A DNA stretch of 64,000 nt from Clostridia bacterium (lineage in GTDB: Bacteria > Bacillota > Clostridia > Christensenellales > CAG-1252). This document shows, piece after piece, positions 5,127 to 63,282 of this stretch. The notes below the pieces were generated by a model. That model had not been told where the DNA came from, did no database searches, and saw nothing but the letters and a program-made list of their open reading frames with translations. A program made the position numbers and the translations under genes. Position 1 is the first letter of the stretch. Each line of letters opens with the position of its first letter. The stretch lies in assembly GCA_017444385.1 (NCBI GenBank), contig JAFSWQ010000002.1:1-64000 (forward strand). The letters are read 5' to 3'.

Positions 5127-5136
5127 TAAAAAACTA

Positions 5137-5166
5137 TTGCTTAAATGAGAAAATTTATATTATAAT
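5137..5166 (+). promoter_or_regulatory. Sigma-A-type promoter for the DUF3737-patB operon
   Basis: TTGCTT (5137-5142) and a perfect TATAAT (5161-5166) are separated by 18 bases. Transcription would begin near 5173 and give a short leader of about 22 bases carrying AAGGATG before the start at 5195. Confidence 0.65.
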
Positions 5167-5194
5167 GGTTATAAGAACGAAGGATGGTGTTATA

Positions 5195-11627: not shown

Positions 11628-11645
11628 TGTGTGACGGAGGTAAAT

Positions 11646-14600
11646 ATGAAAACTCAACGCTTAAGCATCATTGTTTTGCTACTTGTCATAATGACGACGG
11701 CTTTCTGTCTCGTCTTTACGGCTTGCGCGAAAGACAAAGAATTCCGAGTCTCACCCGTAGACGGCGGTAATCAGACCGTTGTCGACGGCAAAGAAGTGAC
11801 CGACGTGGAAAAGTTGGATACCACCGACTTCTTCGCGGTCTTGGGCGAATTCGTTAATTTCTACAAAGCCGCTTCGGTCTCGACGGACGATAAAGACTAT
11901 TTCGTTTTCGATCTTAAGACCGATAAATTGACGATGGTCAACGACGGTGTAACGACCGAGTATTACGGCGAATTCAAGTTCCGCTATTTTTGCGCGGACG
12001 GCGCTACCGAGCAACAAGTCAATCGCAACAGCGTAGGTTCTTTGGAATTACGCAAAGTTCAAGGCGATCTGTTGTTCGCGATCTTCTACGAAGAGGGCGT
12101 TTTCTATATCGATCTTGCTAACGGCGCGAGAATGTACGTCAATGAACTCAACCTTGCTCAACTTGCCAAATTGACCGGCTCTTTGGGCGGAGCGGTGGAC
12201 GATATCGCATCTTTGGGTTCCAAACTCGACGCGCTGGATCTTGGTTTTATCAACTTGGCGCCTATCATAAGCTCGTTGCTTGAAAACCTCATAAAGAGAG
12301 CGGATATAACGACCTTGACTTCGGTAGTCAACGATAAGGTTACCGAGTATCAAACCTTCGACCTCGAATTCGACGTCACTTCCTTCGTGAAGGGTATGTT
12401 CTTGCAGATCTCGAATTTCTGGGGCATTGTCAAAGCGACCGTGGGCGATCTCGATTCTGTTCTCACCGCGTTGCCTATGGGTATGACATTCGCGCAGCTT
12501 GCGGCTTATCCTCTTGAAAACATTACCTTTAAGATTGGTATCGAAACTATCAACGGTACGTTCGACCGCTTTACCTCCGAGGTCGGATATTCCGAAGATA
12601 TTTTCCGTTTGGGCGTAGCCATCGGCGCGGAGTACTTGGGCGACGACATTTCCGCCGTTTCCTTCGAGACTCCCGATATCAACGAATACGAAGAGTTTTC
12701 TATCTTGAATTTGGATTTCAGCACCTCCGTTTTGATTTCCAACGAATCTCAAAAGACTTTCAACGTCGGTGAAGTTGCCGGCGAATTTCTTACCAACGTT
12801 TTGGGCTTGCAGACCATAGGCTCGTTGGCGGATAGCGAAGTATCCTTGGGTATAGGTTCTCTCGGTATTAACTTGAGAGTACAGGCGTCTTTGGATCTCG
12901 CGAGGAACGAACGCAATAAAATACAAATTTTAATGGGCGTTAACGGATCCGAGGATAACGTCGCGAAGATTAAATATCAAGGCGATACCGAAAAGCTTAT
13001 TATAGATCTTTCCGCTCTCGGACTTCCTTCCTTCTCTTATACGTTTAACCTTAATAACGTTTTGGTGCCCTTGCTCGGCGAGACTATCGTATCTTCTTTG
13101 AGCGGTACCGCCGCAGCGGAAGACGTAGAGGACGCTTTGATAAGCCTTTACGGCGGCGACGACCTCTATTCCGCTTTGGTTAATTACTTTGCGGTCAATC
13201 CCATCTATTTGGCTCCCGCAGGCGAGACCAATCCCAATATTTTGGGACTTTTGAAAAACAATATCGTTCCTTTGTTGGCTCAAATACTCCGCGCTCTCGA
13301 ACTTGACAAACCCGGTAAGAAATTGACGCTCACCTTTACGCGCGATATGCTTTGCGGCGCTTTGAACACCGTCTCGGGTTTGGTTACAAAAGATTCTTCC
13401 GATCCCAAAGATATCGGTAACGTTCTCAAGGCGTTGGCGAATATGATAGATAACAGAGTATTCTCCGAGAAAGACGTCGCTTTCCGTTCTATGGTTTTGG
13501 AGCTCGGTCTTATAGCCGAAGCTCATAGATTCGGCGTAAGCGTTGACGTTAGCGTAGATCTTGCGCAGGATACCACTATGAAAGTAGGCTTACCTCTCGT
13601 TGGTCTTGGCTTCGCTCCCGAATTCGTCGATGCTGTATATACTACCGATCTCACCGATCTCGACGAGATATCCAACGTTTCTTTCGGCGGCGAAATAGAT
13701 ATAGACTTTACGACTGGCGAAGTCGGCGCGAACGGATTGTCTATCGACCTTAACGACGCGATAGGCGGTTTGCGCGACTATATCGGCGAGATGGCTGCGC
13801 TCTTGAACTTTACCGACAAGATAGAGGCTGGCGTAAACGTTAAATTGCAAGGCAACGTTGGGCTCGACGGCGTCAGCGCTTCCGCTTTGTTGCGCGGTGA
13901 ATCCTTGAATCCCAAATTGGAAAACGTTCAACTCGCTATGGTTATAACCGCGAAAGGCGAGACCGATCCTCTTATCGCCGTGTATTACACTCATTACGGC
14001 GCGGACGGCAACGAATCCGCCGTATTCGTAGATCTCCATAATCTCGGCATCGAGGGTATGACGATACCTCGTATAAAATACGATATCGATTTGGAAACCC
14101 TCGTTAACAATAAGTTGAACGCCTTGACGATCACCGATCCTTCTCAAACCGAAGAAGAGGATGAACCCGAAGAAATCGTGGAAGAAGAACCGACTCAAGA
14201 TGCTGCGGCGATTTCTCTCGATCAAATAGTCGGGCTTATCGGTTCGGTCATCGGTAGAATAGACGTAAGACAGGATAGACTCGGCGTTTACGTAGCGACC
14301 GACGTTTTAGAAAACGTCGCGTCCATCCTTTTGGGCGAGGATATCGAGAATATGCTCAAACTCGACAGCGAAAGTAAAATACAAATATCCGTCGAGGACG
14401 GTTTGAAAGTCGAGGCGAGAGTGGGCATCGATACCAAGGGCGACGTAAACGACAACGTTTCTCTCAATGTGGTGTTGAAGAACTTGTACCTCAAAATGGG
14501 ACGCAGCGAATTCCCCGAGGTCGATCCTTCGTTGTATAAGAATTTACAGGACATTACCGCTATTTCGGTTTCCGCTTCCGCATACGTCAATTACGATCTC

Positions 14601-17600
14601 GACACCAATACTTACGACCTCAGCGATATAGTTCCTTTGGCGGGCAATTTCGTAGAAGGCGGCATCGCCGAATTGTTGAGCGATCTCTTGTTGAATGTTC
14701 AAGTTATAGGCGACGATGATAACGCCGTTAAGGGCTCTATCCTCGTTAAACTCGACGTGAACCTCAACTTCGAGGACGGCTTTGACGTTTCAAAATTGTT
14801 GAATACGTTGGAAGCTAAGGTCGAATTGCTATCGGACGGTCAATCCTTGTTGAAACTGTACTTTGACGGCATCTATCTCTACGTCGACGCTAACGCCGGC
14901 GTTTTGGAAGGTTCCGCGGTCAGCGGTTTCGATATCGACAGCTTTAAGATAAGAGTAGGCAAATTGCCTTGCGGTTGTACTTGTTCCGAATGTATTCAAA
15001 GAGGCGGTTGTTATCTCGGCTCCAACGTGGTTTGTAAAGACGACGACTGCGAGTGCGATTGCTGTATGATAGTTTCCGAGGCGGACGAAGAAGAGTCCGG
15101 CGGAATTCTCGACGTTATACTCGCCAACGTAGGCGTGCTTTCTTCCATAGATATAGGCAGCAAAGGTATCGCCGTCAATTTGGCTTCCAATACGTTTAGA
15201 AGAGTTTTGAATATCGTGGGTAGCGAAGCGCTCGGCATAGACAATTTCTATCAAGGCGTGGCTCTCGACGGTTTGACTCCTCGTATCTACGCTGAATTCG
15301 GTTCGAGCGGCATAGGTTTAGGCTTGACGTTGTTCCTTAACGACGGCGCTGACGAAGAGTACGGTTACATCAACGTAGGCTTGGGCGATTTGACCGTCGC
15401 TCTCGAGAATAACGATTCCCTCATTCCCGCGGACGTTTTGGCGTTCTCGGAATTGAATATTTCCGATCTCAGTGAAATGAGCGCCGCGATAACGGGTTCC
15501 ATTACCCTCGATATCGCAAAATTCGATAAAGGCGAACAAGGAAGCAACCTCGGCACCTTGCTCAAATCCATAGTTCCCGCTCTCGACTTGGGCGTGGCTG
15601 TGGTAGGCGACGACTATAACCTCGAACTTGCTTTCGATCTTAACGCGAACGTCGACCTCTCTTCGTTGGATCTTAACGATCTTTCCCGCGCGGCTGAAAT
15701 ACTTCAAGACGCTCAACTATTGTTGAAAGTTTACGTTGTAAACGGCGGCGTAAGAAGTAAAGAAGTAATAATGCTCTTCTACGACGGACTCACCGATACC
15801 GTTTATGCGAAAGCCGACCTCTTCGGTATAGGCGCGGTTTCTTATAAGGGACTTGACGTCTACGAAATGATATCCGCTCTCACCGCTACCGAAGAAGAGG
15901 AATCCGAATCCGCCGACGTAGACGGTAAAGCGAAACTCGTCGCGCTTAAATTCAATAAAAACGGCATAGCCGTTTCCGCAACCGGCGCTTTGGTTGCCGG
16001 CGCTCTCGCTCAATTCGGTATTTCGTTGGGCGGAATCGATATAGGCGAATATCTCGACACTATCGGCGTCGGCCTCACCACTGACGGCGGCATTTCGGTA
16101 TCCTTGGGCGTCGCGGGCGTTAACGCCGCGGTAGCGATCAACGGATTGCATATGGGTATGGGCTACATAGATATCGAAAAATCGGCGTTCGACGGTTGTA
16201 AGAAGTCCGACTTCGTTGTCGTAAGCGACGAGAATGGTAAGCCCGCTTTGCACGAAATATACTTCGCGCTTTCCGCGGATTTCGATCTTTCCGGTACTTT
16301 AACCGGCGCGTCTACGGGCGTAGGCGTGGATCTTGCGCCCACCGCTTATAAACTTTTGGATAATTTGAATATCGTCGGCGACGTAAGCGACTTCCTAAAA
16401 CAAATAGCCGTTTACCTCGAATACGATCTTGACGCTCGCTTTACGTTGAACCTCAAAGGCTTCGCGAATATCTACGACCTTTCCGAGATAGTTTTATCGA
16501 TAGAAGTCACCGATAGCGAAGGCGTCACTTTAATAGGCTTGTACTACGACAGTAACACCGATAGAGTTTACGCGACCATACCTTCGCTTAATCTAAAAGA
16601 CTTCTACGTCGAACTTCCCGTGATCAGGGATACTTTGCAAGGTTCCATAGGAACTTCCGTGATAGAAGCGCTCGCGATAGTCAGCGGCGCGGACGTCAAC
16701 GCTTCCGAAGCGGCGGCTCTTGAACTCGGCGATCTCGACGTTCTTTCTCTCGTCAGCGAAATCATAGATAAGGTTGAGATAGACGGCAGTAAGGGATTGC
16801 TGAAAATATCCACCGTTACGAATATGATAGGCGTGGCGACCGCTTTGTTGTCTCTCGACGTGTTGGACGACGTGGTATTACCCGACCTCGGCGCGTCGGT
16901 AACTTTGGGCGTGGACAACGACGAAGGCGTATCCATCGGCGTAGGCGTTTCCGCTTATAGAAATGCGGAAGAATGTTTCGCGATGAACTTGGGCGTAAAC
17001 GGTTTCAAACTCGACTTCAAGAAACCCGCGAATATGCTTCCCGACCTTTCCGGTTACGTCGAATGGACGAAGATAAATCTCGGCTTCTCTACTAAGGCTC
17101 AAGTTTCTTTGACTCTCGATGGTGAATACGCTTCCATCGTGAACGAAGTCATCGCTTCAAGTATCACGGGTAGCGCATTTGAATTCGTAGTCGATTCCGA
17201 GAGCGGCAAGGTTACCGCGGATCTCGGCGTAGATATGGCTTTGAACGTTAAACTCAACGACTTCAAAGACGTAGGCGTGGAAATGTGGTTGAGCTTGTAT
17301 TACAACGCGAAAGATTCCTTAACGTTCAGCGACGACGATAGGCTTTTGGCGATCTACTTCAACTCTCTCGACAGATACGTCGACGGTAAACCCGTTGAAT
17401 CCGTCTACTTCCAATTGGGCGGTAATAAACAAGGTAACAGCGCGATAAGAGTGGACGATCTCGGCATCACTGCGACCGTGCTTGATCTTATCAAGGATTA
17501 TCTACCTAAGTCCGATGTTGCGGAAGCGGCAGATAGTTCCTTCGTTCAACTTTCCTTGTCTGACGGCGCTGCTATCCGCGTGAACGGCGGATTTATCGGC

Positions 17601-35600: not shown

Positions 35601-38600
35601 TATTTGTGGATAAGATACGAGGGCAGCAGCGACTACGTCAAAGAGCGCGTCGAATGGGCTCTTATGAACGTCAAGAATAACTATGCGGGCGGTATCACCC
35701 ATGCGACGTTCAGAATCACTAGCGACGATAGCGATAAACTCGCGCGTATCCAACTTGCGGGCTATCAAACCAAAGACGTAGCTATCAAGATCAAAGACGC
35801 CACCATCGCGAGTTACGTCATAGAAGGTTTGGCTGATAGAATAGACCCGTTGTATATGATCTACGTAAGAAGAGATCAAAACGGCAATATGATAGACTAT
35901 ATCGAATACAACGGTAAGTCGGAATTCTACAGTAATGGAGTTAACAACAATTCGCCCGTACACTTCAACCTCGTAAGCGGCGATAACGTACAACTTCTCA
36001 ACCTCTATAAACCCGAGTTGGTAATCTTCGACACGGTTAACAAGAAGATAGTTGATCCTACCGACGCTTTGGACGAAGATTGCTATCCTCATACCGTTAC
36101 CATAATCTACAAGGACGGCACCACCGCTACCTTCAAGGCGGAGATGGGTATAGACGGTAACTTCGACAAAGAAGCGGGCGTCATTTGGGAAACCGGCAAC
36201 CTCAAACTCGACTACAAGGGCGGCAAGTACAACGCGAGCTTAACCGTAGGTAGCGTAGCGGGCGGCTATCAAACCATAGACGTACCCATCTACATTGCGG
36301 ACAGAACGGTGGCGCATATCAACTTGAAAGCTGTACGCGATTCCTACGTATTCCATCCGTACGTTTACACCGACTACGCTTTGGACGAAGCGTTGTATCC
36401 TTCTAATGGTATGAACCTCGGCGAATTGATCGACGCTATGAATACGGCGCCCAACACGTTGAGCAACGTTATATTCACGTCACAAACCGCCGACTACTAT
36501 CCTATCAAGTGGGACCTCACGAGTATCAACACCTCTTACGAGGGCGGCACCTTCAACGCGAAAGCGAAGATAGGTTCGGACGAAGCCGGTTATCAAACCG
36601 TTAACTTTGAAATAGTTATTAAGCCTAAGGTCATCAAGACCTTACTCCTTGACGACTTCGTATTCGATCCTTACGACGAATCCGTCAATCCTTTGGAAAA
36701 GAGCACCTATCCCGAGGACGTCACCGTTCGTTTCGAGGACGATACCAACTTCGAATTCCATAACGTCAAGTGGGAGTTGGACGGCTTAACGCCCAAGTGG
36801 AACACCACGGGCGGCAACGCGACCATCAAAGCCAAGATAGGTAACGCGTTGGGCGGCTATCAGATCTACGACGTCAACGTTTACGTTGAAAACAGAGAGA
36901 TCAATAGATTCCAATTGAATGCCGATAACGTCATCGTATTCGACCCGTACGGCATAGATCCCGACGCGTTGTCGAGCGATCCTCGTTTGACCGCAAGTTA
37001 TCCTGACGAACTCTCCGTCATCTTCGTAGGTAGGGACGGCATAGCGGATACCGAAGACGATACCGCGGGTACCGTTAAGGTCATTTGGGATATCAACAAC
37101 ATAATCAACGATTATCACGGCTACAAGAGTAAAGAAGCGGATAAGTATTACAAGACTTACGAAGTCTACGTCAAGGTAGGTAACAACCTCGTAGGTTATA
37201 CCGATAAGGCGATATCCGTTAAGATACTCAACCGTGAGATCGAAAGCCTCAAACCCAGTAAGTTGACTATCGATCCGTTCAGTAACGACAGCTTGACTTC
37301 TACCGTTACCGTTGAATTCAAAGACGGTTCGGTCGGTTCTATGCCCGTCGAATGGACAGATAAGAATTACGACTTGTACGTATTGGGTAGAGAGGTCGAT
37401 AACACCGACGCTTATGTTTACGCGAGAGTGGGTAACTACATAGGCGGCTATCAAACCAAGAAGGTCGGCGTCGACGTAATAGACAAGACCATCGGCAAGA
37501 TATACGCCGGCAACGAGATCATAGCCAAGAGAGTAGCGGGCGAATTGAAGATAAGCGGTTTCGAGTATGAAGTCGGCGACGATATCTACGTACGCGACGC
37601 TTGTTACTACGAAATCGATCCTTTGGAAGATACCGCGCGTATCGTTACCGTATCCAAACTGAAAGGATCTAACGAGTACGTTTACAACTATCTAAAGATT
37701 TCTTCCGGTCTCGACGCGTACTTCGAAGAAGACGGCACTTCCCGTAACCTCAGCGCAACTTGGGATATGTCGGGTATCGTAGACGTTGACTACAACGGAA
37801 AGACCTTCTACTCGCTTGAGAATTCCTCTACCAAGGGCGTCGTATTGAGCCTCGGTACCGCGAGAGTGGGTTATATCGAACTCGAGTACAAGGCTAAGGT
37901 TCTCAACCGTAAAGTAGCCGAAGATGAGAACAACAGACCGTTCATCTACACGTCTTACGACGCGTCCACCGGTATCGGCGAACGCTTGAACTACATCGTG
38001 GACGACGACTTCGATTCCGCAAGTTATCCCAACGTCCTCTACTTCCGCTTCGCTAATTCGGACGGCGTGGAAGGCGACGTTATCCAAAAGGTCGTTACCT
38101 GGAACAAGAAGACCGATTACGCTACCGTAGTTATCGGTAAAGAGAAATACGGAACGCAATCCTTCGATATACAGGTCTACCACGTAAGAAGAGAAGTAAC
38201 TTACGATAGCTTTACTGCTAACGATTTAGACGACGAACTCGACGCTCTTGCAGCCTCGATCTCCGAAATTACCTTCGAAAGCGAAGTCGGTATGACCAAA
38301 GCGGAGGCTATCGCCAAAGTAGCGGAATACAAACTCGCCGCAAGAGTCGCGGGCACCGAAGCGGGATATCTCGCTATCATTGACTTCCTCGCTTCCTCAA
38401 AGGCAGCGGAAGGCTATGAAGACGCTCTTAACGACGCAAGAACGCTTGCAGACGAGATTAAGTATGAATTGATTAATATAGTATTCGTAGATCCTTACGA
38501 TATACAAATGCCCGATTCGTTGAACGTAACGATAGGTAGAGCGCAACTTGTAGGCGGCGGTATCATCACTACCGATTTGTGTGGCTGCGAAGCTTGCCAC

Positions 38601-41600
38601 GGTCTTACCTACTGCGCGGACGACTGCGGTTGCTGGTGTAACGCCAAGAATTACGTTATGATAGCCGACTGGTCGAAAGCGGTCATCAATTATTTGTACT
38701 CCACCGCGGGTGTAACTCAAGAGATCAAGAACGTCACCGTGGGCGACGAGGCGATAGGCTACTACGCCGTCACCGCGTTCGTTGAGATCGAAGGCAGATA
38801 TATAGTCGCGGTCGAGAAAGACGAGTTCGAGATAGATCCTTACGATTACACCACCTTACCTTCTCGTATCGAAGTTCTCTTCAAGGACGAGAACGAAGGT
38901 AAACACCTTGCCGGTACTTTGGACGTAATCGCTAATATCAGCAACGCCCAAAGAGTTACCGAAGCGATGGTAAACGATCCCGCTTCCATCGTATACGGCC
39001 ACAGCGAATATATCAACGGCAACGTTCAATTCTACGAAGGCGGATATTACGTCCTCACCGCTAAAGTCGGTACGAGATTAGGCGGATATCAAGACGTCGA
39101 TATGCTTTTGAACGTATCTCGCCGTGTGGTTATGAAAGTCGCGGATAAGTACGTCGAAGACGGTGAATTTACCATTCACGTAACGCCTTACACGGGTCTC
39201 GGTCGCTCGACCAATACTCCCGACAATACCATCGAAGTCGTTTACGACGTCGTGGATACCGACGGCAATTACGTACAAGGCAAGTTGAGCGCGCTCTGGT
39301 CGTACGCAAATATCAATTATCACTATTCGGGTAGCGTCGCGGACTCCTACGTATTGTTGGGCAACGTCCAAGGCGGTTATCAGATCCTTCCCGTCAAAGT
39401 CATCGTCGAAGAAATGACGGTCGACAAAGATAGAATGGCAAGCGAGAACGTCGCGGTCAACTCGGACGGTAGCGCGTACGTTTACAATCCCTACGACGGC
39501 GGCAAGGCGATACCTTACGCGGTACGCGCTTACTTCGTCGGTCAGGAATATCCTCTCGAATTCGTAGTCGATCAAGAAAACGGTTACAGAATACGTTCCT
39601 TCGATATGAACTCGAGCGAGATCGAGGTAATGGTAAGATTGGGTAACGAGCGTAGCGGTTATCAATGGACTCAAATCAGCATACCCGTAGCCAATACCGC
39701 TATCGAGAGTTGCGAAGACGTCTATCTCGACGGTGAAACTCACAACGGCGTAACGAGAGCGTCCGTCAAACCTTACACCAATCCTTTGACCGTAAACGAA
39801 AAAGGATTGATAACCGTAGGCGGCAAACTTCTCGAGATCACCTGTAAGAACGTCGACTACGCGGCTTCCGTCAAGTTGAACGCTAAACTCGAAGGCGAGT
39901 TCAAGTACGACTACAACGGTACCGACGGATTGGTCGCGTTGAAGGTCGCGCTCGGTAACGAGATAGGCGGATATAAGTCCGCTTCCGTGAACGGAACGCC
40001 ATTCTATATCTACGTCAAGGTTACGCCCGAAATAATCACGGGTATCCAAAAGGTATTCTACGAAGACGGCAAGTTGAGAGAAACCGATATGTACAAGTCC
40101 TACTTCGAGGGCGTGACTATCGATCCTTACGACCTACCCGACCTCACCGCAGATTCCGTAAAAGTAATGTTATCCGACGGCAGAGTCATCGAAGCGAGTT
40201 ACGGATTATCCGTCAAGGGTATCGGCTTCGCTACCGAAGACGGAGTTATCCAATCGCCTATCGGTTACGGAGGATACGTAGGTCGTATCGTAGTTTACGT
40301 AGGTAACGACTTCGCGGGTTATCAACCCGTATTCCTCAAAGCGACCGACGGAACCTATCGTACGGCGGAAATCAAGAACGTAACCGTAGACGTTACTTCG
40401 AATGAGTTCAAGGCTTACTTCCCGACTTGGGTACAACCTTACTCCTACGTCTTACCTACCGAGATAACCGTGGGCGGTATAACCTATAAAGTCGCTTTGT
40501 ACAGTAACGGTAAACGCCTTACCGATAGAGACGTAAACTACGCGGGCGGTTCCTATCCCGTAGTCGTATACGTCGGCACCGAAGAAGGCGGATATCAATA
40601 CTACGAATATACTTTGAACGTATATTCCAAATTAATAGATTCCATAGAAGGTCTCGACCTTATCACGATCGATCAATTCTCCGGCGAAGTGGTATTGCCT
40701 AGCGGCACGTTCAAAGTCTACTTCACCGACGGTTCGAGCGCGAACTTCGACGTCAAGACCATCAAGGAATATATGAACGATCGCAACTACGTCCTCAAAC
40801 TTCTTTCGGACGACGAAGGATATTACTTCTCTACTTCTATTGTCAACGCTTCGGGCGCGGCGGCATTGGGTAGAACGGGCGGTTGGGATCTCTCCAACGT
40901 CAAACTCGCATTCGACGGCGGCAACTACTTCGCTACCTTGTATATCGGTAACGATTTGGGCGGTTATCAACCCGTCGACATCCCCGTAGCGATAGCGGAT
41001 AAGAAGATAGACGCAAGCGCGGGTCTCAAGTACGTCGTTTCGAGAAACGGCAACAAAGTCACCGTCAAGTCCCTCGATACCATTTATGCCGGCTGGGGCG
41101 AATACTTCTTATTGCCTTACGATTTGTGGCTTACCTATACCGACGGTACCAGCCTTAACGTAAGCGTGGTATGGAACGAATTGCGTTGGGAAGAAAACGG
41201 CGAGATCGTTTCCAAGTTCGGTTGGAGCGCGGAAGACCTCTATCAGACCGACGAGAACGGCAGAATCTATCGTACTTATAAGGTTTGCGCGGACGTTTAC
41301 GGCTCGACCGTTACTCTCGACGTAGTCATTACTCGCGATAGAATGGTCGAAGGCGACTCCTTCGCGGATTATTACAGTGTAAGAAGAGGTAGCAAATCGC
41401 CTCTCGGCAACGTCATCAAACAAAACGTTTACGACGTATCCGGCGGTGCGGCGATACTCCTCGACACCAACGTATTCGACGTGGTATGGACTTACGTACC
41501 TTCCTTCGTCATCGAAGACGATTACTTGCTTGAAGCCAAGGTAGACGGCCTTGCGATCAACTGGTCGAGATTCGTCAACCTGACCGTGTATAGCGGCTAC

Positions 41601-43022
41601 ATCGTCAAAGTCCTGTCGGTAGATCAAGATAATGAAGAGGTCGTCGTCGGTTCCTTGCTCACTCCTTCCACCTTGCCTACGTTGACGGTCAACGTCATCT
41701 ACGGCAGAACGGTATCCACGAAGTCTTTGAAGGTCGGTTGGATTTACTACAAGAACGTCAAGAACGGCGTAGAGACCATAGTAAACGGCGAGGTCAACGA
41801 CTTTGCGGTATTCGCTAACGAGCTTGACGTAGAATACTACTTCAAAGCGGTTGTCTACGGCAAGGACGGCACGTTGCTCGATATGGACGGCGAAGACATC
41901 CTCGTTCGTAAAGTCGTGGTCGATACAGACGACATTTCGGATAAGATAGAACTCAACGTCAACGCGGACGTCGGAACCGATCACGCGTACATAAGACGCG
42001 AGTATCGCGACGCGGAAAGCCCGATATTCACGTTGAAAGACGTCGACTTCGAAGTTATCAAAGTGCTGTTCACCGAGCGCAACGGAACGGCTGTCGTCAG
42101 CGAACTCATTTACGATAACGGCGTATTGGTTAGCGGCGCGGCTCCCGTCAACGCGGGCGAATATCACGTGGAAGTCTTTATCCGCTACAAGGGTAGCGAA
42201 TCCGCGGAAGTCAAGAGCGTAGAGTGCGATTACGTGATCGAAAAGAAGGATATATCCAACGCGATTATCGTATATTCGACCAACAACACTTACGATGGCA
42301 GCGCTAAACCCATCACCGCTTACGTCAGCGGACAACTCGCTTCGCTCACTGTAGAGTATTTCGTATATGGCGAATACGTTTCGGAAGCTCCTTCCGACGT
42401 CGGTTCGTACGAAGTAAGACTTACCATCGTTTCGGATAACTACGTAGGCAGTAGAACGATAACGATGAGTATAGTACAAACCATTCAGGTCTACTTCTAC
42501 AAGACTTTGGATGCGGCGTTGCCTATAGACGTCAACGCGGTGCTTATCGGCGACGGCAGATATCTCGAAGCAACGATGCCTTCGGATAACCAGATCATCG
42601 ACGGCGCGGACGGCGTATCCACCGTTAAGTGGTTCTACGTAGATCCCGACACGGGCGCGCACGTAGCGTTCAAGTCCAACAACAAGATCACTACCTCTAT
42701 GTGTCAGGTGATAGACGATAACTACGTCCTCAACCTCTACGCTGCGGTATTGACCGTTAAAGTAAATAACGGAGTGATCGAATTCAACGATTACGACGGC
42801 GAGATCTATAAGACTCTCACCGCCGAGATCAGATCGATCACCGAAAACAAACAAGCGGGTAGTTTGACTATCACCTACGCAAACCACGACTTCCATACCA
42901 CGAAGAAAGGCGATTGGAGCGCGGCGGGCGAATATCAAATGACTCTTACGATGAGCGTAGGCGGTATCGTCAGCGTTCTCAAAAACGGAACTTCCGATTA
43001 TATCGACTTCATCGTCGAATAA
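11646..43022 (+). CDS. Giant modular exported protein, probable lipoprotein (10,458 aa)
   Basis: The gene is one uninterrupted frame. I chose the ATG at 11646 because GGAGG lies 5 bases upstream; a GTG at 11631 has no such site. The N-terminus has a hydrophobic signal (residues 6-26) ending FTAC, a lipobox-like cleavage site with Cys27, so lipid anchoring is likely. Order of parts: about twenty related beta-rich modules (to about residue 7640) with five cysteine-rich cassettes; one EF-hand loop (7650-7661); about eighteen Ig-like repeats with a GGYQ signature (to about 9900); and MBG-like domains near the end. There is no LPXTG, SLH domain or C-terminal membrane helix. The predicted mass exceeds 1 MDa. 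It probably lies outside the membrane as a surface fibre, adhesin or scaffold, but no catalytic motif is seen and the function is unknown. Acidic and Ala-rich linkers separate modules. Confidence 0.9.
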   Translation: MKTQRLSIIVLLLVIMTTAFCLVFTACAKDKEFRVSPVDGGNQTVVDGKEVTDVEKLDTTDFFAVLGEFVNFYKAASVSTDDKDYFVFDLKTDKLTMVNDGVTTEYYGEFKFRYFCADGATEQQVNRNSVGSLELRKVQGDLLFAIFYEEGVFYIDLANGARMYVNELNLAQLAKLTGSLGGAVDDIASLGSKLDALDLGFINLAPIISSLLENLIKRADITTLTSVVNDKVTEYQTFDLEFDVTSFVKGMFLQISNFWGIVKATVGDLDSVLTALPMGMTFAQLAAYPLENITFKIGIETINGTFDRFTSEVGYSEDIFRLGVAIGAEYLGDDISAVSFETPDINEYEEFSILNLDFSTSVLISNESQKTFNVGEVAGEFLTNVLGLQTIGSLADSEVSLGIGSLGINLRVQASLDLARNERNKIQILMGVNGSEDNVAKIKYQGDTEKLIIDLSALGLPSFSYTFNLNNVLVPLLGETIVSSLSGTAAAEDVEDALISLYGGDDLYSALVNYFAVNPIYLAPAGETNPNILGLLKNNIVPLLAQILRALELDKPGKKLTLTFTRDMLCGALNTVSGLVTKDSSDPKDIGNVLKALANMIDNRVFSEKDVAFRSMVLELGLIAEAHRFGVSVDVSVDLAQDTTMKVGLPLVGLGFAPEFVDAVYTTDLTDLDEISNVSFGGEIDIDFTTGEVGANGLSIDLNDAIGGLRDYIGEMAALLNFTDKIEAGVNVKLQGNVGLDGVSASALLRGESLNPKLENVQLAMVITAKGETDPLIAVYYTHYGADGNESAVFVDLHNLGIEGMTIPRIKYDIDLETLVNNKLNALTITDPSQTEEEDEPEEIVEEEPTQDAAAISLDQIVGLIGSVIGRIDVRQDRLGVYVATDVLENVASILLGEDIENMLKLDSESKIQISVEDGLKVEARVGIDTKGDVNDNVSLNVVLKNLYLKMGRSEFPEVDPSLYKNLQDITAISVSASAYVNYDLDTNTYDLSDIVPLAGNFVEGGIAELLSDLLLNVQVIGDDDNAVKGSILVKLDVNLNFEDGFDVSKLLNTLEAKVELLSDGQSLLKLYFDGIYLYVDANAGVLEGSAVSGFDIDSFKIRVGKLPCGCTCSECIQRGGCYLGSNVVCKDDDCECDCCMIVSEADEEESGGILDVILANVGVLSSIDIGSKGIAVNLASNTFRRVLNIVGSEALGIDNFYQGVALDGLTPRIYAEFGSSGIGLGLTLFLNDGADEEYGYINVGLGDLTVALENNDSLIPADVLAFSELNISDLSEMSAAITGSITLDIAKFDKGEQGSNLGTLLKSIVPALDLGVAVVGDDYNLELAFDLNANVDLSSLDLNDLSRAAEILQDAQLLLKVYVVNGGVRSKEVIMLFYDGLTDTVYAKADLFGIGAVSYKGLDVYEMISALTATEEEESESADVDGKAKLVALKFNKNGIAVSATGALVAGALAQFGISLGGIDIGEYLDTIGVGLTTDGGISVSLGVAGVNAAVAINGLHMGMGYIDIEKSAFDGCKKSDFVVVSDENGKPALHEIYFALSADFDLSGTLTGASTGVGVDLAPTAYKLLDNLNIVGDVSDFLKQIAVYLEYDLDARFTLNLKGFANIYDLSEIVLSIEVTDSEGVTLIGLYYDSNTDRVYATIPSLNLKDFYVELPVIRDTLQGSIGTSVIEALAIVSGADVNASEAAALELGDLDVLSLVSEIIDKVEIDGSKGLLKISTVTNMIGVATALLSLDVLDDVVLPDLGASVTLGVDNDEGVSIGVGVSAYRNAEECFAMNLGVNGFKLDFKKPANMLPDLSGYVEWTKINLGFSTKAQVSLTLDGEYASIVNEVIASSITGSAFEFVVDSESGKVTADLGVDMALNVKLNDFKDVGVEMWLSLYYNAKDSLTFSDDDRLLAIYFNSLDRYVDGKPVESVYFQLGGNKQGNSAIRVDDLGITATVLDLIKDYLPKSDVAEAADSSFVQLSLSDGAAIRVNGGFIGALLDFLKVSNLIPIPDIGKLIDGASISANADEIGLSINFGGESALALSVLDYKVFFVNDSENLSAVEGFTTSVDALRNKAVSLKELDQIYFASSFTVAGSFGKTLDEYGNVVSDELVSYNDVLKLFLTSDASGEVYYGVDVEMGVSGLDLSNMTVAMFTENASIADVVSNIIANVDVELMVIIKDKNNVTNYADGEPVIGVYYHSNVTDVVYVNFPALNLQLALRDAFDLSEILTNLLKSIGNSSSAEATDYVTILKLLDKILVSPEGIALSASAQILSRAMTLAGIDLSLPEVISFIGIGELNDLAIDTESGSVGVNTDIKNGLGIRLSAVSNPDYSLDIAIGDPVLEFRSEKKEIYAYTENGGMKSDFFGQLSKYISADAVHAHVSFDVELDFTVGATADSEESNLINFKTILAEFVNTNFSIDIVDYLHGKYVLSVDAAINLAEGVNNMYGLTFYIVLTEMDPENTKLMSLYYTRTEKSGILGIDLQGLLGIEPFQLEMNLAEIVGGVFDLEKLSFAEDGEIENEDSSFMGLLNSLRGVLGVYLATDEVKIKVSGEILQSVLSFIGYDKYLPALEQGFTLKNNDKVMALKDGDYVATVKGTRAGEAVEDSFNFKKAMKENVYVLNIGYKSIQRISVYRNRDLRAELTSTAQINSYFAIDRNAGTIRFSNGAGANSLSVGTYEIRIDYSDGSKSTFEMVKEVVITTVNVIDLNDFDIDEIVLSGESDVTLVSDPDDALWYGNYFAVNAVGASVNLTVGNGGLTAQIVLKDNTQVALSVKNIKIDAGEYQIDTPQSYKENVEFLTISTEIEFNLHAEEGVSASISNLLGNTLDKYLPKGDLPFDYSDIPIGMWLENDVDQHYLLTLQMNIHFDQYADTPLDLGGSEFVIQIYSLSDNAGKQVIGDLKLGIAYIGTEGENGAIYLNVPYFDLLLKINEANFKAYVNTLVNSFFSKNNTDDDLAEASESAITIESVINLFLGLSIGENFMRVNFVSDILNLAVRLAGLELDFSQVNEEKSYVAIYNYLLYDDVPKTTFVEIDLDEVTYDKFLEARLEAYMNDNNANYLSDLIDELNALSITDAASLDKRAEIVDDLEGFDPDKNTQEEFNVIKAKVLDLVVDGDQTAYEALKDDFDAFKIKDEYLDIIIYALNIGFDGDLYHEVPLGQYTTITQAKALYFDLSGSIDIESEGSVINIGSLIDSEEDDNIFNDFLNEIAGSSTNLVFQESKQSIDFSLEANIGMGSDKLNMIVDGDYTFRDLMLAMVDDIYLCFEISRRVGDTKEVLIDLKYQNEYVYLDMSALGLPKVGMGLTVKDVLQLLVTDDSETAAAGEIDHGNAFEVLFYSDKLMLRGSVKFIDLILDLFGYKLNQANISLEASVAKDQLLQASLVAVDDANHVTSIAISINKPVLTLGGFYNKQIEDATDYAMIDNLEYIYLATTLEIGYRLNKTENEDDYVLTDFFAEEIGLNPIPVIVTESTEMIMVMDFALNFCVSDVTKSELYIHMTNNDPNNNGELMTIYYDGNGYLYTSAPMFGSDLNIKVEFDIRNILSIFGKEELLEMFKIDQKIKDALSILNFGDKEEEETAAAEGDQENTIVQMITRLISEVSLASDGAIGVILKNNILDSLPLSFFNNERVARELKELSVSVDFFNRRFAANVKLNSKLAGEADPYFNIVIRDYNIRGYNKGAKQDIEFDGSRYNTTEDYKHLYFDLEGTIDYYFADGEYNFGGLITNWIRGAAINVGIEGINGQLSYKLSAKIGIGADVLERLMDSEIVLEIYYAGIGDPKPQHLLLSIYFDVLKGEIYVDLPWFEVPQLLITGVDVSKYLNDFLNGSNVAAAADEPSWYATARMVGSMIDRIIISDGSEGNLPEGLNVVFKDTLIQSLLDNLAKDLNMSLPFTLQETDKAYSYVGLSIKERRLTIDLELQKTDTSESGYVRLNAKINDVYLDDTSIRPDRTQDVTAYTVLLDLSNPVDDMLVLETIYFEANMSFDVDMIASEVNLQKVLRYLVNDKLVMSFVDHIDMTIDVSLAANINLRHLGWSELLLKISTSQTIEGVTSEAMFIRVYFVGLENAFYIDAPMVGLYDIKYEFDLGSLLDGLLKNQPVEEEVTPVITELDCGCTDLACILNGSCFDKNGDKLCKDGCECTCANFSCGCNCDVCKANGSCVDAEGNKLCEAGCTCDHCKLDCGCQCMDCVINGSCFDDEGNRLCSESCVCSDCELPCGCRDEYCLAIARQTGDYENACGLYGMYCHGRDGDCCKCHKALGCRCTNPKCIEEGRCIYGWDLGDLADPTDDKPLTYCDDGTGACLNHEKSCICHRDVLLCHCVNPNHVEDYSCPVRASEDDPCMFVPFGEGKITAIVEGVRVEVSEETYYQYYVRPDSETVCNGSCLTHYMGLVTDIFEEFTITKDHMKVVTNKYLVANLFELIAGEKLAVEDTPGGSIEIVMNYLKRNSEGRIEDESFFKNLLISAAIKYYGKDQIEPSTIGVEVKNFVFKTGDHDIAFLKIDESTRKETVQLADTNEYQLISEPGSTDLSLANINKISFNLTIEINETAGYVKYKNGDIGDYETEFSDILRKIIPGLGTVFGLKTTPYSPSMVFTLDVSGCIDLNNVNASQVFITLHEGGESNGTVERRLGYIFYDGEAPEGTTLYLDIPAFNINQIKYVGIDIDGLLNKEKLECGCTDVRCNANGSCYNADGVRICAEGSCTCSYFECGCNCDSCIAAGVCDSCPITCKCAHCAVAAPSGDSYLICGCSNAECLARGSCYYGCPTCAYTLNPIPENNCHVNASGKTLKCGCSDPLCVGRGCCYALCPYCDADRGCAKKYDAKNMFSDTSVMIATLLDSLLTIDVSLAAGVQIGIAPSLLASLLNAIDVDIDLDELTDLGYLKGGFRLSPEDGLGINFEFGTKAGELPNDVEEIGVPSIRISLGNVGLKLRKVDVRALLDDDIKSRLDHFTELTFNDNVAISASGRLNIKGTEGDISLDSLISNLLKQNVSLGLDFDTYDYNIEYNLLANINLDSIINFDINKVLTENEILLELIDLSDENNPELIVSLYLEDGWAYVDFGIFADTPSIKVDVLNLLGEKRLVSEAAEPTTYLSYNANSAKPEVVSTGKMYFYLDDNANEPYMLALKGKDLVSVTIENMNVNHIAAEKTKVVLTPENISDYFELSVDGNLSGFLFAKNDNVATLADDVQGNYYNITVTTTGGKVTFASKIATRNLIGFSDIFAQGGIEKVIATVLSFVEYFTAGKDYFSMRVGGDILFIVEELLDLDGVVLDLPEIGGIGVKVPMKSTLTAIDKDEYDANVYNSDKFGMKTVSSDVELGEISLASVAKMVLTVNGETFTITEDLNKYLKEVDGKLYLRSDNSSKTIDLNTGCYELKLFNSGEESLTVKYFHKGAFVAPELELDLKNIVVKLEVGNYFFVVLKNEGEEYTDGDGKYCLLNYVSKTYLKNADGDFVEKKSKQVINDGKRNHIDSDKYKDVLSGLDELYLALSADMTIDISNNNITNINDPYNSQGSIFGLGDNLANYIGAVLLNLGMSAHEINGDYRLIVRVHLMSLDFTNFDYDDIKVYVKVQKKCHDVWFGGEYIDENGDYVDVFSVYYDAQNLYINANPDLFSLLHAPATYISFKDAFDFWETSAAADLERYTPYSIYDSYAEAGTGFSVPGIIELFNGIRIGRGKIGIELANGFISSLIRMFTDYDFEVDLGVFGLEVNYMDGQLIIDYAKSDVYTPSLALDAEGNQLYEDAVDYAGVVINDQNKTLSLTDVALNNLPDGVWTINVSYTNGSMQSFTATISDDVTYAIGGVAKTVEELYTALVEGKTIKEFVLVANEITVDKYEDENDGVYTYFLAEENGETLVLVNRKVMYSFAADTVTITLTPTEGAQDVQTLNIQAGCSTIVNASGKKTVEFIGDYFVIHSTAAKKLSKLTFAAPELICIELNEKGYDKQDMSLLINGGKVEIGFELPEKYKTTSLGGTGGPYNELEEYKFNTMGFNASTKGLKLTDYSSWNHNEYYVGATMELTLDYKNYDIDLLSLFYSNPGDVLDFTTLKNALSATILLETQRAINLKIDLKSKINTTDWNYTEIRIDIYLDNYYKMEGGVKKLVTDPIILYFDGAGAEEDATVYVDLSAFGLDKIYFKFDLMTIFRNLVIGMIGTAEYTSSNTDNNVIVDGGLDCGCTCATCLANGKCISYDQRTCDENCNCKHCRLECGCTNQGCIDMGTCYDSNGIRTCDGESCGCNCTKLSCGCTHKACEQNNGCYTIDLETGDVVKLCGNSCKCSHCMLECGCNCSSCLSAGGCIADPATGLTRCDENCMCKCHENEPQDNKQMLDKILDVAKYADKIIESITIGNSRMFIALNPNILNNVFAALAIRTLFSEDCKIYLEGKIYEDFANSYLQLNVDLQRGEQIYKTQVRFGNLTLYGYNNESFSRDYLASEVPDPTGVLEALSAKWKKYQKNAFSDYVIKKKVGTSYVAFDGTITARTDELAVFYKETDEDPIAIFKADDSFSPDIRPSDITDVVNDWTSVKDLQIKFSTSLYIDINGGEANTDVIKNLTENLKDILHVSPSANDIIQAIFRNDDFTDQPDFRLRIDIGMFLDMGNHSSTELKLEISKEYMVGDEAVDYLLIGLYYTNSVDNGTLYLSLPVLQISGLKVKGLDLSSILDTLKVFDVFDKVAGAGDEPEDFFGLILRTFDLKLDFIQDLLDKIGNASENAEIEDAALALAISDTRIGFAINLALVKLIIEVADLRETVGGVMDTVMSLVDLDVLEVILDRGDGVIDEGESILNELSLTIGLYFNKNTTKRFGDVGVDDYKWSGLNLTICNIAVKVSNDFAKYDADHYLDFPVGNSYQGGRFVNYEKFKNVQEYSDLLNLTNFKINLSGSITLDLLDDQAGYENPLMKFIASKLSGISFEVLGAEVILTEDTLKLNKNLAEKYTIGFDIAANINFEHWSNTELKIEFTYDRASDAVDKKVLMGIYYWGGNTVADDGEVNDKLYTGNLYIDLEGLGLFKTKIEGTNLLAILNKLTGVDLSKGELKVGQELLDSLFNTSNLTEIVKKFVDRIEEEQLERSAVENGEVQEEQEEEETVEKLSCGCTNPECLERGTCYNDDGLLSEGEHKCACSVNDASLTFSLDTYISDRSGVLGRDFNIDVNSNMLQKLLYMFGVDFEMPKDTDVNIDLKAANGFEGLTITVTTFDVNEEGEAFTNASGEKQGSKLILAVDDFGVEYTKTSNLLNNVVYDIETKTIDGQSRKVKAEKSTFSGVNLGGKLGDANHYKGNLITAIISNVIDALNTEVGLQWYSNSSYVDASGSSVVTNKERNLTVSLNRILQTDPDKPNTGNYIHGQDFYLNVLFEKVPIIKNYLKGLYYYEHKVYIDLDLYITLFGNKITVYDKPFVWDFDLNQFFNKEPALGDVDSPTDISREEDINTRAITMKDLEEGLKNPLKNITINLGRGEVGHYGEILDYNQDDCVSNIRIDLNPLFVGGLLSSLTSSLGDMINGALGGGFNVKDLENKYVIYAFYSAMKNKLISTNNGYIRTLLNTIADNVLGDLVFTIVSNILLPFPTITRGSECYILVELHDKPKPDASGELSMIRKLFVSINTKATGEFWNVELTLDKALKIVKVNLSASNPVTVRDEAHEGSGNLDDRTVVDVFDLDYDKDGVFDYMEDLPKKAQVNHFESSSVDNSSEAQDRKQNMYDMSWSDAVFTINPQEPGDYYVEGYVLNYVQKVKVHVPASAVRKIKYDNLTVTVDGEPYHIPMITGKGLNYPIVLDATEVDSFVKNLPSVIYVTMTDGNDENEFVKAFDGTKGVGSGIVKWDTSAISKSYNGGTYILGLTFGDGIVGNYHVDIPVTVNKNDLNGIIFADENGGYENGSSTLVFNPYEEIVLPNKVWATFGNALPALYNIKWNVTVNDIVPVYTGYTYRVSARIGNADVGYYDYNNITITVKSYVMADYKLLLPSGEYVDLDLEFDPYHTNDDGLVDALNVDNYPRYLWIRYEGSSDYVKERVEWALMNVKNNYAGGITHATFRITSDDSDKLARIQLAGYQTKDVAIKIKDATIASYVIEGLADRIDPLYMIYVRRDQNGNMIDYIEYNGKSEFYSNGVNNNSPVHFNLVSGDNVQLLNLYKPELVIFDTVNKKIVDPTDALDEDCYPHTVTIIYKDGTTATFKAEMGIDGNFDKEAGVIWETGNLKLDYKGGKYNASLTVGSVAGGYQTIDVPIYIADRTVAHINLKAVRDSYVFHPYVYTDYALDEALYPSNGMNLGELIDAMNTAPNTLSNVIFTSQTADYYPIKWDLTSINTSYEGGTFNAKAKIGSDEAGYQTVNFEIVIKPKVIKTLLLDDFVFDPYDESVNPLEKSTYPEDVTVRFEDDTNFEFHNVKWELDGLTPKWNTTGGNATIKAKIGNALGGYQIYDVNVYVENREINRFQLNADNVIVFDPYGIDPDALSSDPRLTASYPDELSVIFVGRDGIADTEDDTAGTVKVIWDINNIINDYHGYKSKEADKYYKTYEVYVKVGNNLVGYTDKAISVKILNREIESLKPSKLTIDPFSNDSLTSTVTVEFKDGSVGSMPVEWTDKNYDLYVLGREVDNTDAYVYARVGNYIGGYQTKKVGVDVIDKTIGKIYAGNEIIAKRVAGELKISGFEYEVGDDIYVRDACYYEIDPLEDTARIVTVSKLKGSNEYVYNYLKISSGLDAYFEEDGTSRNLSATWDMSGIVDVDYNGKTFYSLENSSTKGVVLSLGTARVGYIELEYKAKVLNRKVAEDENNRPFIYTSYDASTGIGERLNYIVDDDFDSASYPNVLYFRFANSDGVEGDVIQKVVTWNKKTDYATVVIGKEKYGTQSFDIQVYHVRREVTYDSFTANDLDDELDALAASISEITFESEVGMTKAEAIAKVAEYKLAARVAGTEAGYLAIIDFLASSKAAEGYEDALNDARTLADEIKYELINIVFVDPYDIQMPDSLNVTIGRAQLVGGGIITTDLCGCEACHGLTYCADDCGCWCNAKNYVMIADWSKAVINYLYSTAGVTQEIKNVTVGDEAIGYYAVTAFVEIEGRYIVAVEKDEFEIDPYDYTTLPSRIEVLFKDENEGKHLAGTLDVIANISNAQRVTEAMVNDPASIVYGHSEYINGNVQFYEGGYYVLTAKVGTRLGGYQDVDMLLNVSRRVVMKVADKYVEDGEFTIHVTPYTGLGRSTNTPDNTIEVVYDVVDTDGNYVQGKLSALWSYANINYHYSGSVADSYVLLGNVQGGYQILPVKVIVEEMTVDKDRMASENVAVNSDGSAYVYNPYDGGKAIPYAVRAYFVGQEYPLEFVVDQENGYRIRSFDMNSSEIEVMVRLGNERSGYQWTQISIPVANTAIESCEDVYLDGETHNGVTRASVKPYTNPLTVNEKGLITVGGKLLEITCKNVDYAASVKLNAKLEGEFKYDYNGTDGLVALKVALGNEIGGYKSASVNGTPFYIYVKVTPEIITGIQKVFYEDGKLRETDMYKSYFEGVTIDPYDLPDLTADSVKVMLSDGRVIEASYGLSVKGIGFATEDGVIQSPIGYGGYVGRIVVYVGNDFAGYQPVFLKATDGTYRTAEIKNVTVDVTSNEFKAYFPTWVQPYSYVLPTEITVGGITYKVALYSNGKRLTDRDVNYAGGSYPVVVYVGTEEGGYQYYEYTLNVYSKLIDSIEGLDLITIDQFSGEVVLPSGTFKVYFTDGSSANFDVKTIKEYMNDRNYVLKLLSDDEGYYFSTSIVNASGAAALGRTGGWDLSNVKLAFDGGNYFATLYIGNDLGGYQPVDIPVAIADKKIDASAGLKYVVSRNGNKVTVKSLDTIYAGWGEYFLLPYDLWLTYTDGTSLNVSVVWNELRWEENGEIVSKFGWSAEDLYQTDENGRIYRTYKVCADVYGSTVTLDVVITRDRMVEGDSFADYYSVRRGSKSPLGNVIKQNVYDVSGGAAILLDTNVFDVVWTYVPSFVIEDDYLLEAKVDGLAINWSRFVNLTVYSGYIVKVLSVDQDNEEVVVGSLLTPSTLPTLTVNVIYGRTVSTKSLKVGWIYYKNVKNGVETIVNGEVNDFAVFANELDVEYYFKAVVYGKDGTLLDMDGEDILVRKVVVDTDDISDKIELNVNADVGTDHAYIRREYRDAESPIFTLKDVDFEVIKVLFTERNGTAVVSELIYDNGVLVSGAAPVNAGEYHVEVFIRYKGSESAEVKSVECDYVIEKKDISNAIIVYSTNNTYDGSAKPITAYVSGQLASLTVEYFVYGEYVSEAPSDVGSYEVRLTIVSDNYVGSRTITMSIVQTIQVYFYKTLDAALPIDVNAVLIGDGRYLEATMPSDNQIIDGADGVSTVKWFYVDPDTGAHVAFKSNNKITTSMCQVIDDNYVLNLYAAVLTVKVNNGVIEFNDYDGEIYKTLTAEIRSITENKQAGSLTITYANHDFHTTKKGDWSAAGEYQMTLTMSVGGIVSVLKNGTSDYIDFIVE
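14970..15065 (+). repeat. Cysteine-rich cassette A (giant protein 1, residues 1109-1140)
   Basis: There are ten cysteines in 32 residues, with the signature CGCTCSEC, then GGC, then CECDCC. The cassette follows the strand pair of one beta-rich module and is followed by an acidic linker (EADEEESG). Confidence 0.85.
23958..24776 (+). repeat. Cysteine-rich cassette B (giant protein 1, from residue 4105)
   Basis: This is the largest cassette, with about 46 cysteines by 24647 and two more by 24776. The first three units are near-tandem, about 35 residues each, of the form CGCxCxxC, NGSC, a spacer with GNxLC, then CxCxxC. Later units are more divergent and richer in His (GRDGDCCKCHK, SCICHRD). Confidence 0.85.
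25647..26072 (+). repeat. Cysteine-rich cassette C (giant protein 1, residues 4668-4809)
   Basis: The same unit type recurs (ECGCTDVRC, NGSC, then CGCNCDSC). It is inserted directly after the module ending DIDGLLNKEKL. Several short units read CGCSxxxCxxRGxC. Confidence 0.85.
30144..30572 (+). repeat. Cysteine-rich cassette D (giant protein 1, residues 6167-6309)
   Basis: Four to five units start DCGCTCATC, ECGCTNQGC, SCGCTHKAC and ECGCNCSSC, each with a trailing CxCxxC. The cassette lies after the strand pair of a beta-rich module and before a helical segment. Confidence 0.85.
32898..32987 (+). repeat. Cysteine-rich cassette E (giant protein 1, residues 7085-7114)
   Basis: A single short unit, SCGCTNPECLERGTCYNDDG ending KCAC, directly follows a strongly acidic linker (EEQEEEETVEKL). 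Confidence 0.85.
34593..34628 (+). other. Canonical EF-hand-type calcium loop in giant protein 1 (residues 7650-7661)
   Basis: DYDKDGVFDYME has Asp at positions 1, 3, 5 and 9, Gly at 6, a hydrophobic residue at 8 and Glu at 12, which is the full 12-residue EF-hand or TSP3-like calcium loop. It lies at the junction between the beta-rich module array and the Ig-like repeats. Confidence 0.7.
34641..41345 (+). repeat. About eighteen Ig-like repeats with GGYQ signature in giant protein 1
   Basis: Units of about 90-180 residues share an order. First comes FDPY or IDPF near the start, then a proline and strands (VxVxFxDG), then VxW, then YxGGxYxA, then V/IGNxxGGYQ, then a strand ending in a short charged turn (NREI, ADRTV). 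The GGYQ-type motif occurs near 35760, 36250, 36590, 36850, 37445, 39080, 39370, 39650, 40320, 40590 and 40965, with variants (VGY, AGY, IGY, YGT) in between. The pattern resembles bacterial Ig-like repeats of surface proteins, but I cannot assign a Pfam family by eye. Confidence 0.75.
38580..38639 (+). repeat. Small cysteine-rich insert F within an Ig-like repeat (residues 8979-8998)
   Basis: CGCEACHG and DDCGCWC give seven cysteines in about 20 residues, inserted in an Ig-like repeat just after its first strands. It is a shortened relative of cassettes A-E in a different structural context. Confidence 0.75.
42030..42490 (+). other. MBG-like domains near the C-terminus of giant protein 1
   Basis: Two consecutive units end with VNAGEYHVEV and SDVGSYEVRL, and the second starts DISNAIIVYS with TYDGSAKP. 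This matches the MBG/YDG type of bacterial surface repeat, found in many Gram-positive adhesin-like proteins. About 180 further residues follow to the stop, with no anchor. Confidence 0.65.
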
Positions 43023-62307: not shown

Positions 62308-63282
62308 ATGAGCAAAAAGAAGAAAATCGCTATCATTGTAATTTCAATAATTCTGGTATTGATCATCGCCGCCGCGACGGTGATGATCTACCTCTTCTTC
62401 GGTAAGGGTAAAACCGAGAAAACCGAAATAGACAGAAGCAACTTGAAAGGCGTAGAGACCGACGAAAGTATCGTCGCTTGGATGACTTACGATGAAAACT
62501 CTACCCAACAGGAACTTATAACCCTTGCAGTCAAAGCGTATGAAAACGCTTGTAAACTCGACCAAAATTGCGATTACCGTCGCTACGACGTCGATTGCAG
62601 CGTAACGACTATGGGTACGGTCAGGCAGTATATCACGCAAATAAAAAACGGCGAAGAGTTTTATAGAGGCGAAGTGCAAATTCCGGACGACGAGCAGGAA
62701 CCTATCTTTAAGATCATTCTCAAAGCGTTAAAAGACCAAACCTTCTTTAACGGGCAATACGCTAATATGACGGAAGACAAGATGGTTCAAATAAAGACGC
62801 TCGAAGGTATATCCCGCTCGGAAAGCGGCGAGATCTCTGCCGACCTCGACAAGGGGACGGTAGAATACAAAGATAAACCCTACTTTAACCCTGCGCAAGA
62901 GCAAAAATATACTCAAACCGATTTCATCATAAGAGTTGATACCATAAAGAACGTTTCAATTACTCACGACGACGAGAAAGGTTTTTATACGCTCGTTTTC
63001 GATATCGACGTTGAAAACAAAGAAGCAATTGCGAAGCCTTACGAGAATTTGAGTGCGAACGTTGAAAACGCCAAATATACGGCGGTACACGAAACCATCG
63101 AACTTTGGGATAGCGGTTACTTCAGGTACTTCCGTTCGGAAGATCAATGGACGGGGCACGTTGTCGTCGACGTCGCAGCCGAAATAGACTATCAAACCGT
63201 CTTTATTTATGAAGAGGATAAATGCAATATCGACGAGTGCTTCGGCATCGAGAAGTTGAGAGAGGAGATTGCCAAACAATGA
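62308..63282 (+). CDS. Membrane-anchored exported protein of unknown function
   Basis: This 324-residue protein starts MSKKKK and has one long hydrophobic helix (about 7-30), so it is a signal-anchor protein with its body outside. The body mixes helices (ITLAVKAYENACKLD) and strands and contains a few cysteines (CKLDQNC, NIDECFG). I do not recognise a family. A clear AAAGAGGA ribosome binding site (about 62296-62303) lies 27 bases or less after giant gene 2. Its stop overlaps the next start as ATGA. The position suggests a partner in the same system, for instance a surface assembly or stabilising factor, but this is inference from context only. Confidence 0.85.
   Translation: MSKKKKIAIIVISIILVLIIAAATVMIYLFFGKGKTEKTEIDRSNLKGVETDESIVAWMTYDENSTQQELITLAVKAYENACKLDQNCDYRRYDVDCSVTTMGTVRQYITQIKNGEEFYRGEVQIPDDEQEPIFKIILKALKDQTFFNGQYANMTEDKMVQIKTLEGISRSESGEISADLDKGTVEYKDKPYFNPAQEQKYTQTDFIIRVDTIKNVSITHDDEKGFYTLVFDIDVENKEAIAKPYENLSANVENAKYTAVHETIELWDSGYFRYFRSEDQWTGHVVVDVAAEIDYQTVFIYEEDKCNIDECFGIEKLREEIAKQ

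Follow-up and report, generated by a model that had tools for sequence, protein, structure and literature searches.

Giant proteins of bacteria are often regarded as repeat-variable adhesins. The known ones are mainly NRPS/PKS and attachment proteins (PMC11573180), and giant genes are strain-specific according to Reva and Tummler 2008, in the form in which that work is cited in PMC11573180. The nearest parallel in genomic setting to the locus described here is provided by Giant1-5 of Apilactobacillus kunkeei, proteins of 3,000-8,000 aa that diversify by intragenic recombination, Giant1-4 having N-terminal beta-solenoids (PMC12863079). Common to both are adjacent giant genes, a host-associated genome (~1.5 Mb in A. 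kunkeei) and extended, beta-rich proteins predicted to be extracellular, whereas the giant of this report has a predicted lipid anchor, a different domain and a domain order frozen between genera. With Ig-like Big/MBG repeat adhesins it shares a Big_4-like array and an MBG domain at the distal end but, unlike them, it has no sorting signal or sortase, and its membrane-proximal array of 7,500 residues is new. Bridge-like lipid transfer proteins are built as a continuous groove of repeated five-strand units. Together with TamB/AsmA they are also long, membrane-anchored and beta-rich, and may span the envelope (PMC12066543, PMC11014939); the giant, by contrast, probably consists of separate domains of ~280 aa with no continuous repeating beta-groove, in a cell with no second membrane, since Omp85 is absent. 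The LolA/LolB/RseB-N/LppX-LprG superfamily, extracytoplasmic and including some lipoproteins, is defined by an 11-strand incomplete beta-barrel with lid helices and by binding of acyl chains; the repeated unit of the giant may resemble it in a predicted beta-plus-helix half-barrel of about 11 strands per domain. The giant differs in carrying 21 tandem copies per chain, in lacking detectable sequence similarity and in its single-membrane host. No literature on giant proteins of the order Christensenellales was found.

The window, that is, the whole stretch of 64,000 nucleotides analyzed here, belongs to a contig (C9) of a 54%-complete, 0.92-Mb MAG. Positions 11646..43022 of its forward strand form one uninterrupted frame of ~31 kb, with 10,458 codons from ATG to stop, preceded by a Shine-Dalgarno sequence, GGAGG (11636..11640, +). 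The remaining two forward frames contain 651 and 510 stops across the same interval, and a coding pattern (GC1 > GC2, GC3 raised) extends along the entire frame. Only two tiny tandem DNA arrays were found in the 31 kb by Tandem Repeats Finder, implying that the repeats of the protein are old and that DNA repeats do not endanger the assembly. Relatives of the giant are present in 19 of 20 genomes of its family, including all eight near-complete ones, and full-length orthologues have 10,535 (G017), 10,531 (G014), 10,372 (G003), 10,290 (G005), 10,277 (G002) and 10,276 aa (G012). Carriers are recorded as 'Clostridia bacterium' and 'Christensenella sp. UBA1252/3217/3798/4247' MAGs of the NCBI order Christensenellales, one of them from roe-deer caecum. 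Selection on the gene was assessed in two pairs of genomes. For G026 and G055, which are 94% identical and belong to another family of the order, dN/dS was 0.13 overall, indicating that the protein is functional, and did not exceed 0.19 in eight of nine segments of 1,000 codons; in the segment of residues 7000-8000, just past the module array, it was 0.50. For G005 and G001 it was 0.18, with dS near saturation. Frames of similar size in independent MAGs, their collinearity, the dN/dS of 0.13 and the absence of tandem DNA repeats exclude in practice an assembly artefact, and rule out a decayed frame. The 31-kb frame is genuine. Far from being a one-off, it represents a gene conserved in its family and across much of its order, and in the family it is paired with a second giant wherever the contig reaches.

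Collinear giants are found in the two main genera of the family, with 29% identity over about 9,000 aligned positions. When domain-specific HMMs of one genus were compared with the other, domains 1-21 followed the same order in both. For domain 6 there was only a weak match or one to other profiles, and an additional Cys-cassette block followed domain 14 in the second genus. The giant of G026, from another family, gave a domain-order rho of 0.95, a value reached in none of 4,000 permutations. In f3 and f24 giants the first domains are in place and the later ones partly scrambled (rho 0.13-0.80); a genome of f6 gave no positive correlation. Collinearity was partial or absent in the f3/f24/f6 giants G106, G074 and G024. 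By these comparisons, genera do not differ in the order or number of domains, and two families differ little. A variable-copy adhesin was rejected within the family, where module order and number are constant. A real gene with 21 modules in fixed order and ~19 Ig-like domains looks like an old surface structure of fixed length, rather than a sequencing artefact or a variable adhesin.

The architecture of the protein was expected to comprise, in this order, beta-rich modules, cysteine cassettes, an EF-hand, an Ig-like array and MBG, and to match no known family. The order was supported, and Pfam matches to Big_4 and MBG_3 identified the distal part. What had been described as a beta-rich module array is an array of 21 copies of one domain, spanning residues 93-7640 (11922..34562, +; the boundaries of the last module were set by hand), possibly LolA/RseB-like half-barrels. 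Profile-profile comparison of tiles, covering about half of all pairs, resolved residues ~200-7,200 into a single repeated module, and an iterated HMM recovered it as a unit of ~280 aa; modules measure ~245-320 aa plus inserts, and their number was derived from the motif YY-x-G...LYVD together with collinear matches. More than 1,000 copies were gathered. Runs of 60 and 70 modules against Pfam, and comparison with NCBIfam, gave no match, and module profiles found no relative among PDB sequences, where the single match was a chance one (E 0.72). By sequence, then, the module is a previously uncatalogued domain.

The predicted cysteine cassettes do exist, as a repeat of ~42 aa with the consensus ECGCTNPECVANGSCYDEDGVRLCDEGCTCSCCVL of which 14 were found, but they are insertions within module domains. 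On the forward strand, single cassettes are inserted in domains 4 (14967..15080) and 20 (32895..33002), and blocks of them in domains 14 (23955..24593), 15 (25644..26087) and 18 (30141..30587). There are 12-14 copies in the genus of the window and 22-24 in the other genus, so that the decorations vary and the core does not.

Covariation was used to define the phase of the module. Mean-field DCA of 902 copies (Neff 829) produced clear antiparallel ladders over six successive strands. In a concatenated alignment of A_i, B_i and A_(i+1) (878 pairs), the top cross-block ladder joined B_i to A_(i+1), with a score of 13.7, and the others were weaker (A_i-B_i 8.1, A-A' 8.7); these unshuffled values are the fair background for the 13.7, because the shuffle control also strips relatedness. 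B_i + A_(i+1) is thus the probable structural domain. In agreement with this phase, the N-terminal copy opens with a B half, and domains so defined cover residues 93-7224 one after another, most gaps being 4-20 residues long, and contain the Cys cassettes. The ladders are compatible with a meander closing on itself, and in the strands of the conserved core hydrophobic residues alternate with polar ones. An AlphaFold model of residues 565-1510 (mean pLDDT 61, from an alignment of 14 rows) matched RseB (408-704, Z 7.9), LolA (714-946, Z 7.4) and LprG (409-704, Z 5.6), and these matches, as well as that to LolB, fall largely in the phase supported by covariation (408-704, 713-946). However, FimD ushers and porins score similar Z in the same match list, and Z 5.6-7.9 is the range where models without true relatives also land, which makes the likeness to LolA a lead of moderate strength. 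A single module modeled in the phase of the HMM reached pLDDT 81 and matched only open-sheet, porin, ORP and CPAP structures; we assume that this module was cut out of phase, and its folds remain candidates. LolA-superfamily membership found no support at sequence level in the searches of modules against Pfam and PDB sequences. The model is thus suggestive only of LolA/RseB/LprG-type half-barrels, and the module phase and the half-barrel fold are supported but not proven. Chorein or TamB domains had no Pfam match in the giant, and covariation supports discrete domains.

If the modules were half-barrels, the giant could act as a relay in which 21 of them hand acyl-bearing molecules from one to the next between membrane and surface, single carriers such as LolA, LolB or LprG representing one step; lipoteichoic-acid-like glycolipids, lipoproteins and dietary lipids would be candidate cargo. 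This role, which we consider unlikely, would agree with the position of the LolA/LolB/LprG/RseB matches in the covariation-supported phase, with the alternating strands of the core, and with a frozen order in which every domain has its own identity, unlike a plain spacer. An FtsX/MacB-type ABC transporter also speaks for it, being located two genes upstream of the giant both in the window and in a second species of the genus, but in the other genus the transporter is not adjacent to the giant. The fold call is weak, no pocket residue is conserved, and the Ig-like and MBG tails point to binding outside rather than to delivery. It is distinctly improbable that 21 LolA-like carriers form a path of ~80-100 nm along which a single-membrane cell passes hydrophobic or lipid-linked molecules through its wall. 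To our knowledge, lipid transport of such a relay kind is restricted to diderm and eukaryotic systems.

Anchoring of the giant was examined at both ends. As originally proposed, the N-terminus MKTQRLSIIVLLLVIMTTAFCLVFTAC closes with an FTAC lipobox, which together with the signal peptide occupies 11646..11726 (+), contains the sole hydrophobic h-region and predicts lipidation of Cys27. A signal peptide followed by a lipobox Cys kept in relatives is the mark of bacterial lipoproteins: the lipobox was found in giants of the family and of four other families, and among the f3, f6, f8 and f24 giants inspected it stands at the N-terminus wherever the start is present. Past the signal peptide no hydrophobic segment has the strength of a membrane helix, and a C-terminal anchor is absent, again as foreseen. 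Sortase was detected in none of 20 family genomes and Omp85 (PF01103) likewise in 0/20, control genomes being positive for both; peptidoglycan transpeptidases were found in 16/20, including 8/8 near-complete ones. The simplest reading of this gene content is that members of the family have a wall, a single membrane and no sortase anchoring. A single membrane and a wall without sortase fit anchoring by lipid and by membrane helix. A diderm envelope was ruled out by the absence of Omp85 from all 20 family genomes, and so the outer-membrane partner of TamB/AsmA bridges is missing too; a sortase-anchored adhesin agrees neither with the lack of sortase in the 20 genomes nor with the lack of a C-terminal hydrophobic segment.

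The predicted EF-hand was located at residues 7650-7661 (34593..34628, +), at the junction of the two arrays. This EF-hand-like Ca2+ loop, DYDKDGVFDYME, is of canonical form, and its D-x-D/N-x-D-G core is kept in aligned orthologues. It is followed by 19 Ig-like, Big_4-related domains (residues 7720-9852; 34803..41201, +), with a Cys cluster, CGCEACHGLTYCADDCGCWC, inside the array (38580..38639, +), and by an MBG_3 domain and a weaker MBG match (42273..42959, +). Big_4 was matched above the curated cut-off at 1.4e-6 (28.1 versus 22.1 bits) and at 7.4e-8, and MBG_3 at 1.9e-10 (41.1 versus 25).

Ig-like, MBG and GLUG-like domains are known from surface adhesins, and together with the gut and rumen origin of the MAGs they would suit a fibre that attaches the cell to host or dietary glycans, or gathers them, for degradation, analogous to a scaffold made of a single polypeptide. 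In several f3 and f24 genomes the giant has a GH20 beta-hexosaminidase gene, a PIG-L de-N-acetylase gene or both at its side, a hint of glycan ligands. Nevertheless, Pfam scans revealed no carbohydrate-binding or dockerin/cohesin family, and f1 giants have no adjacent GH20 cluster, which leaves glycan capture rather unlikely as the function; as a statement of the ligand it is compatible with a surface fibre. PIG-L-like, GH20-like or aldose-epimerase-like neighbors occur in varying combinations at L165/L166, L142/L143, L151/L152, L168 and L149 (f3, f24), and at L149 two long lipoproteins near the giant have transglutaminase-like C-termini as judged by eye.

A second giant of 6,383 aa is encoded 108 bp downstream (43130..62281, +). 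It has a weak match to the GLUG motif, similar GLUG-resembling repeats and an MBG-like tail recognized by eye, and a C-terminal membrane helix that is also found in other second giants. The gap between the giants contains no promoter-like site, and one weak terminator-like site sits inside the second gene. Wherever the contig of a family genome extends far enough, the first giant is followed by a second one of 6,243-6,395 aa, 27-29% identical between genera, and in f6 and f8 genomes, too, another long frame lies immediately downstream. An ECF S-component-like membrane protein, so assigned by eye and without Pfam match (63222..64000, continuing to 64064, +), adjoins the giant pair in both genera. 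Between it and the second giant lies a 324-aa single-pass protein with a weakly FliL-like N-terminus (62308-63282). Elsewhere in the window, a DUF3737 right-handed beta-helix protein (7e-121) is encoded at 5165-6067, and a VirD4/TraG-like coupling protein and a ClpP-like protease, both recognized by eye, at 1054-4977 on the reverse strand, possibly the edge of a mobile element.

Two giants side by side with opposite anchoring might also build a coat resembling an S-layer, or fix the distance from membrane to wall. Such a scaffold would explain the constant lengths and the conserved, 1:1 domain order; on the other hand, no SLH or wall-binding domain was found in Pfam scans, and giants of other families of the order differ in length, so that we hold this role to be very improbable.

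The distribution of the module was surveyed in the order and beyond. Within the order, its HMM gave matches in 106 of 396 genomes sampled, which belong to 28 of 142 genera and to families f1, f3, f6, f8, f14 and f24, with a prevalence of 33/43 in f3 and 35/40 in f24; the patchiness in f3 shows that the giant is not essential everywhere. In a class-wide sample of 391 genomes the module appeared in just two, both from the order and one of them the window's own genome. The longest module-bearing frames have 12,531 and 13,589 aa, the latter being the longest found (L224, G251:C2 ~118133-119695) and containing the same modules. At L178 (G026:C1 ~113052-117933), adjacent lipoproteins of 743 and 760 aa contain one or two of these modules, and could serve as small experimental models.

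Combined, we favor, with a probability of about 60%, the reading of the conserved giant lipoprotein as a membrane-anchored surface fibre of fixed length that crosses the wall of single-membrane, sortase-less gut Clostridia. Cys27 would be lipidated and sit in the outer leaflet of the cytoplasmic membrane; the 21 tandem beta-domains, possibly LolA/RseB-like half-barrels, would form a membrane-proximal rod with Cys-rich knots as inserted loops; the Ca2+ loop would be the junction between this rod and the distal ~19 Ig-like domains and MBG; and the distal end would meet glycans, cells or particles outside. The lipid-anchored giant would be made beside, and probably work with, the second giant held by its C-terminal membrane helix. 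Surface exposure, crossing of the wall, a role in binding and the partnership of the giants are what we infer from these features. A wall-crossing, lipid-anchored fibre accounts for the lipobox, the constant length and order, the Cys knots and the distal domains. The length of hundreds of nanometres originally suggested for it is generous: with about 4 nm per domain, ~21 half-barrels and ~20 Ig-like domains would reach at most ~170-200 nm when fully stretched. A mere spacer would not be expected to show frozen order and purifying selection domain by domain; these features give room for domain-specific roles, including ligand carriage.

These results describe a lipoprotein of more than 1 MDa in which, by sequence comparison, 21 domains of individual character have retained their order from one genus to the other and, for the most part, between two families. 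The uncatalogued domain that it defines was confined, in the sample, to a single order of gut bacteria, most of them uncultured. With its neighbor, the giant takes about 50 kb of small gut genomes of 1.1-2.2 Mb. Should the half-barrel fold and lipid binding prove true, one would also have to ask whether lipid relays exist in single-membrane bacteria. The giant offers a concrete test case of how walled, sortase-less, single-membrane bacteria may hold very long surface proteins.
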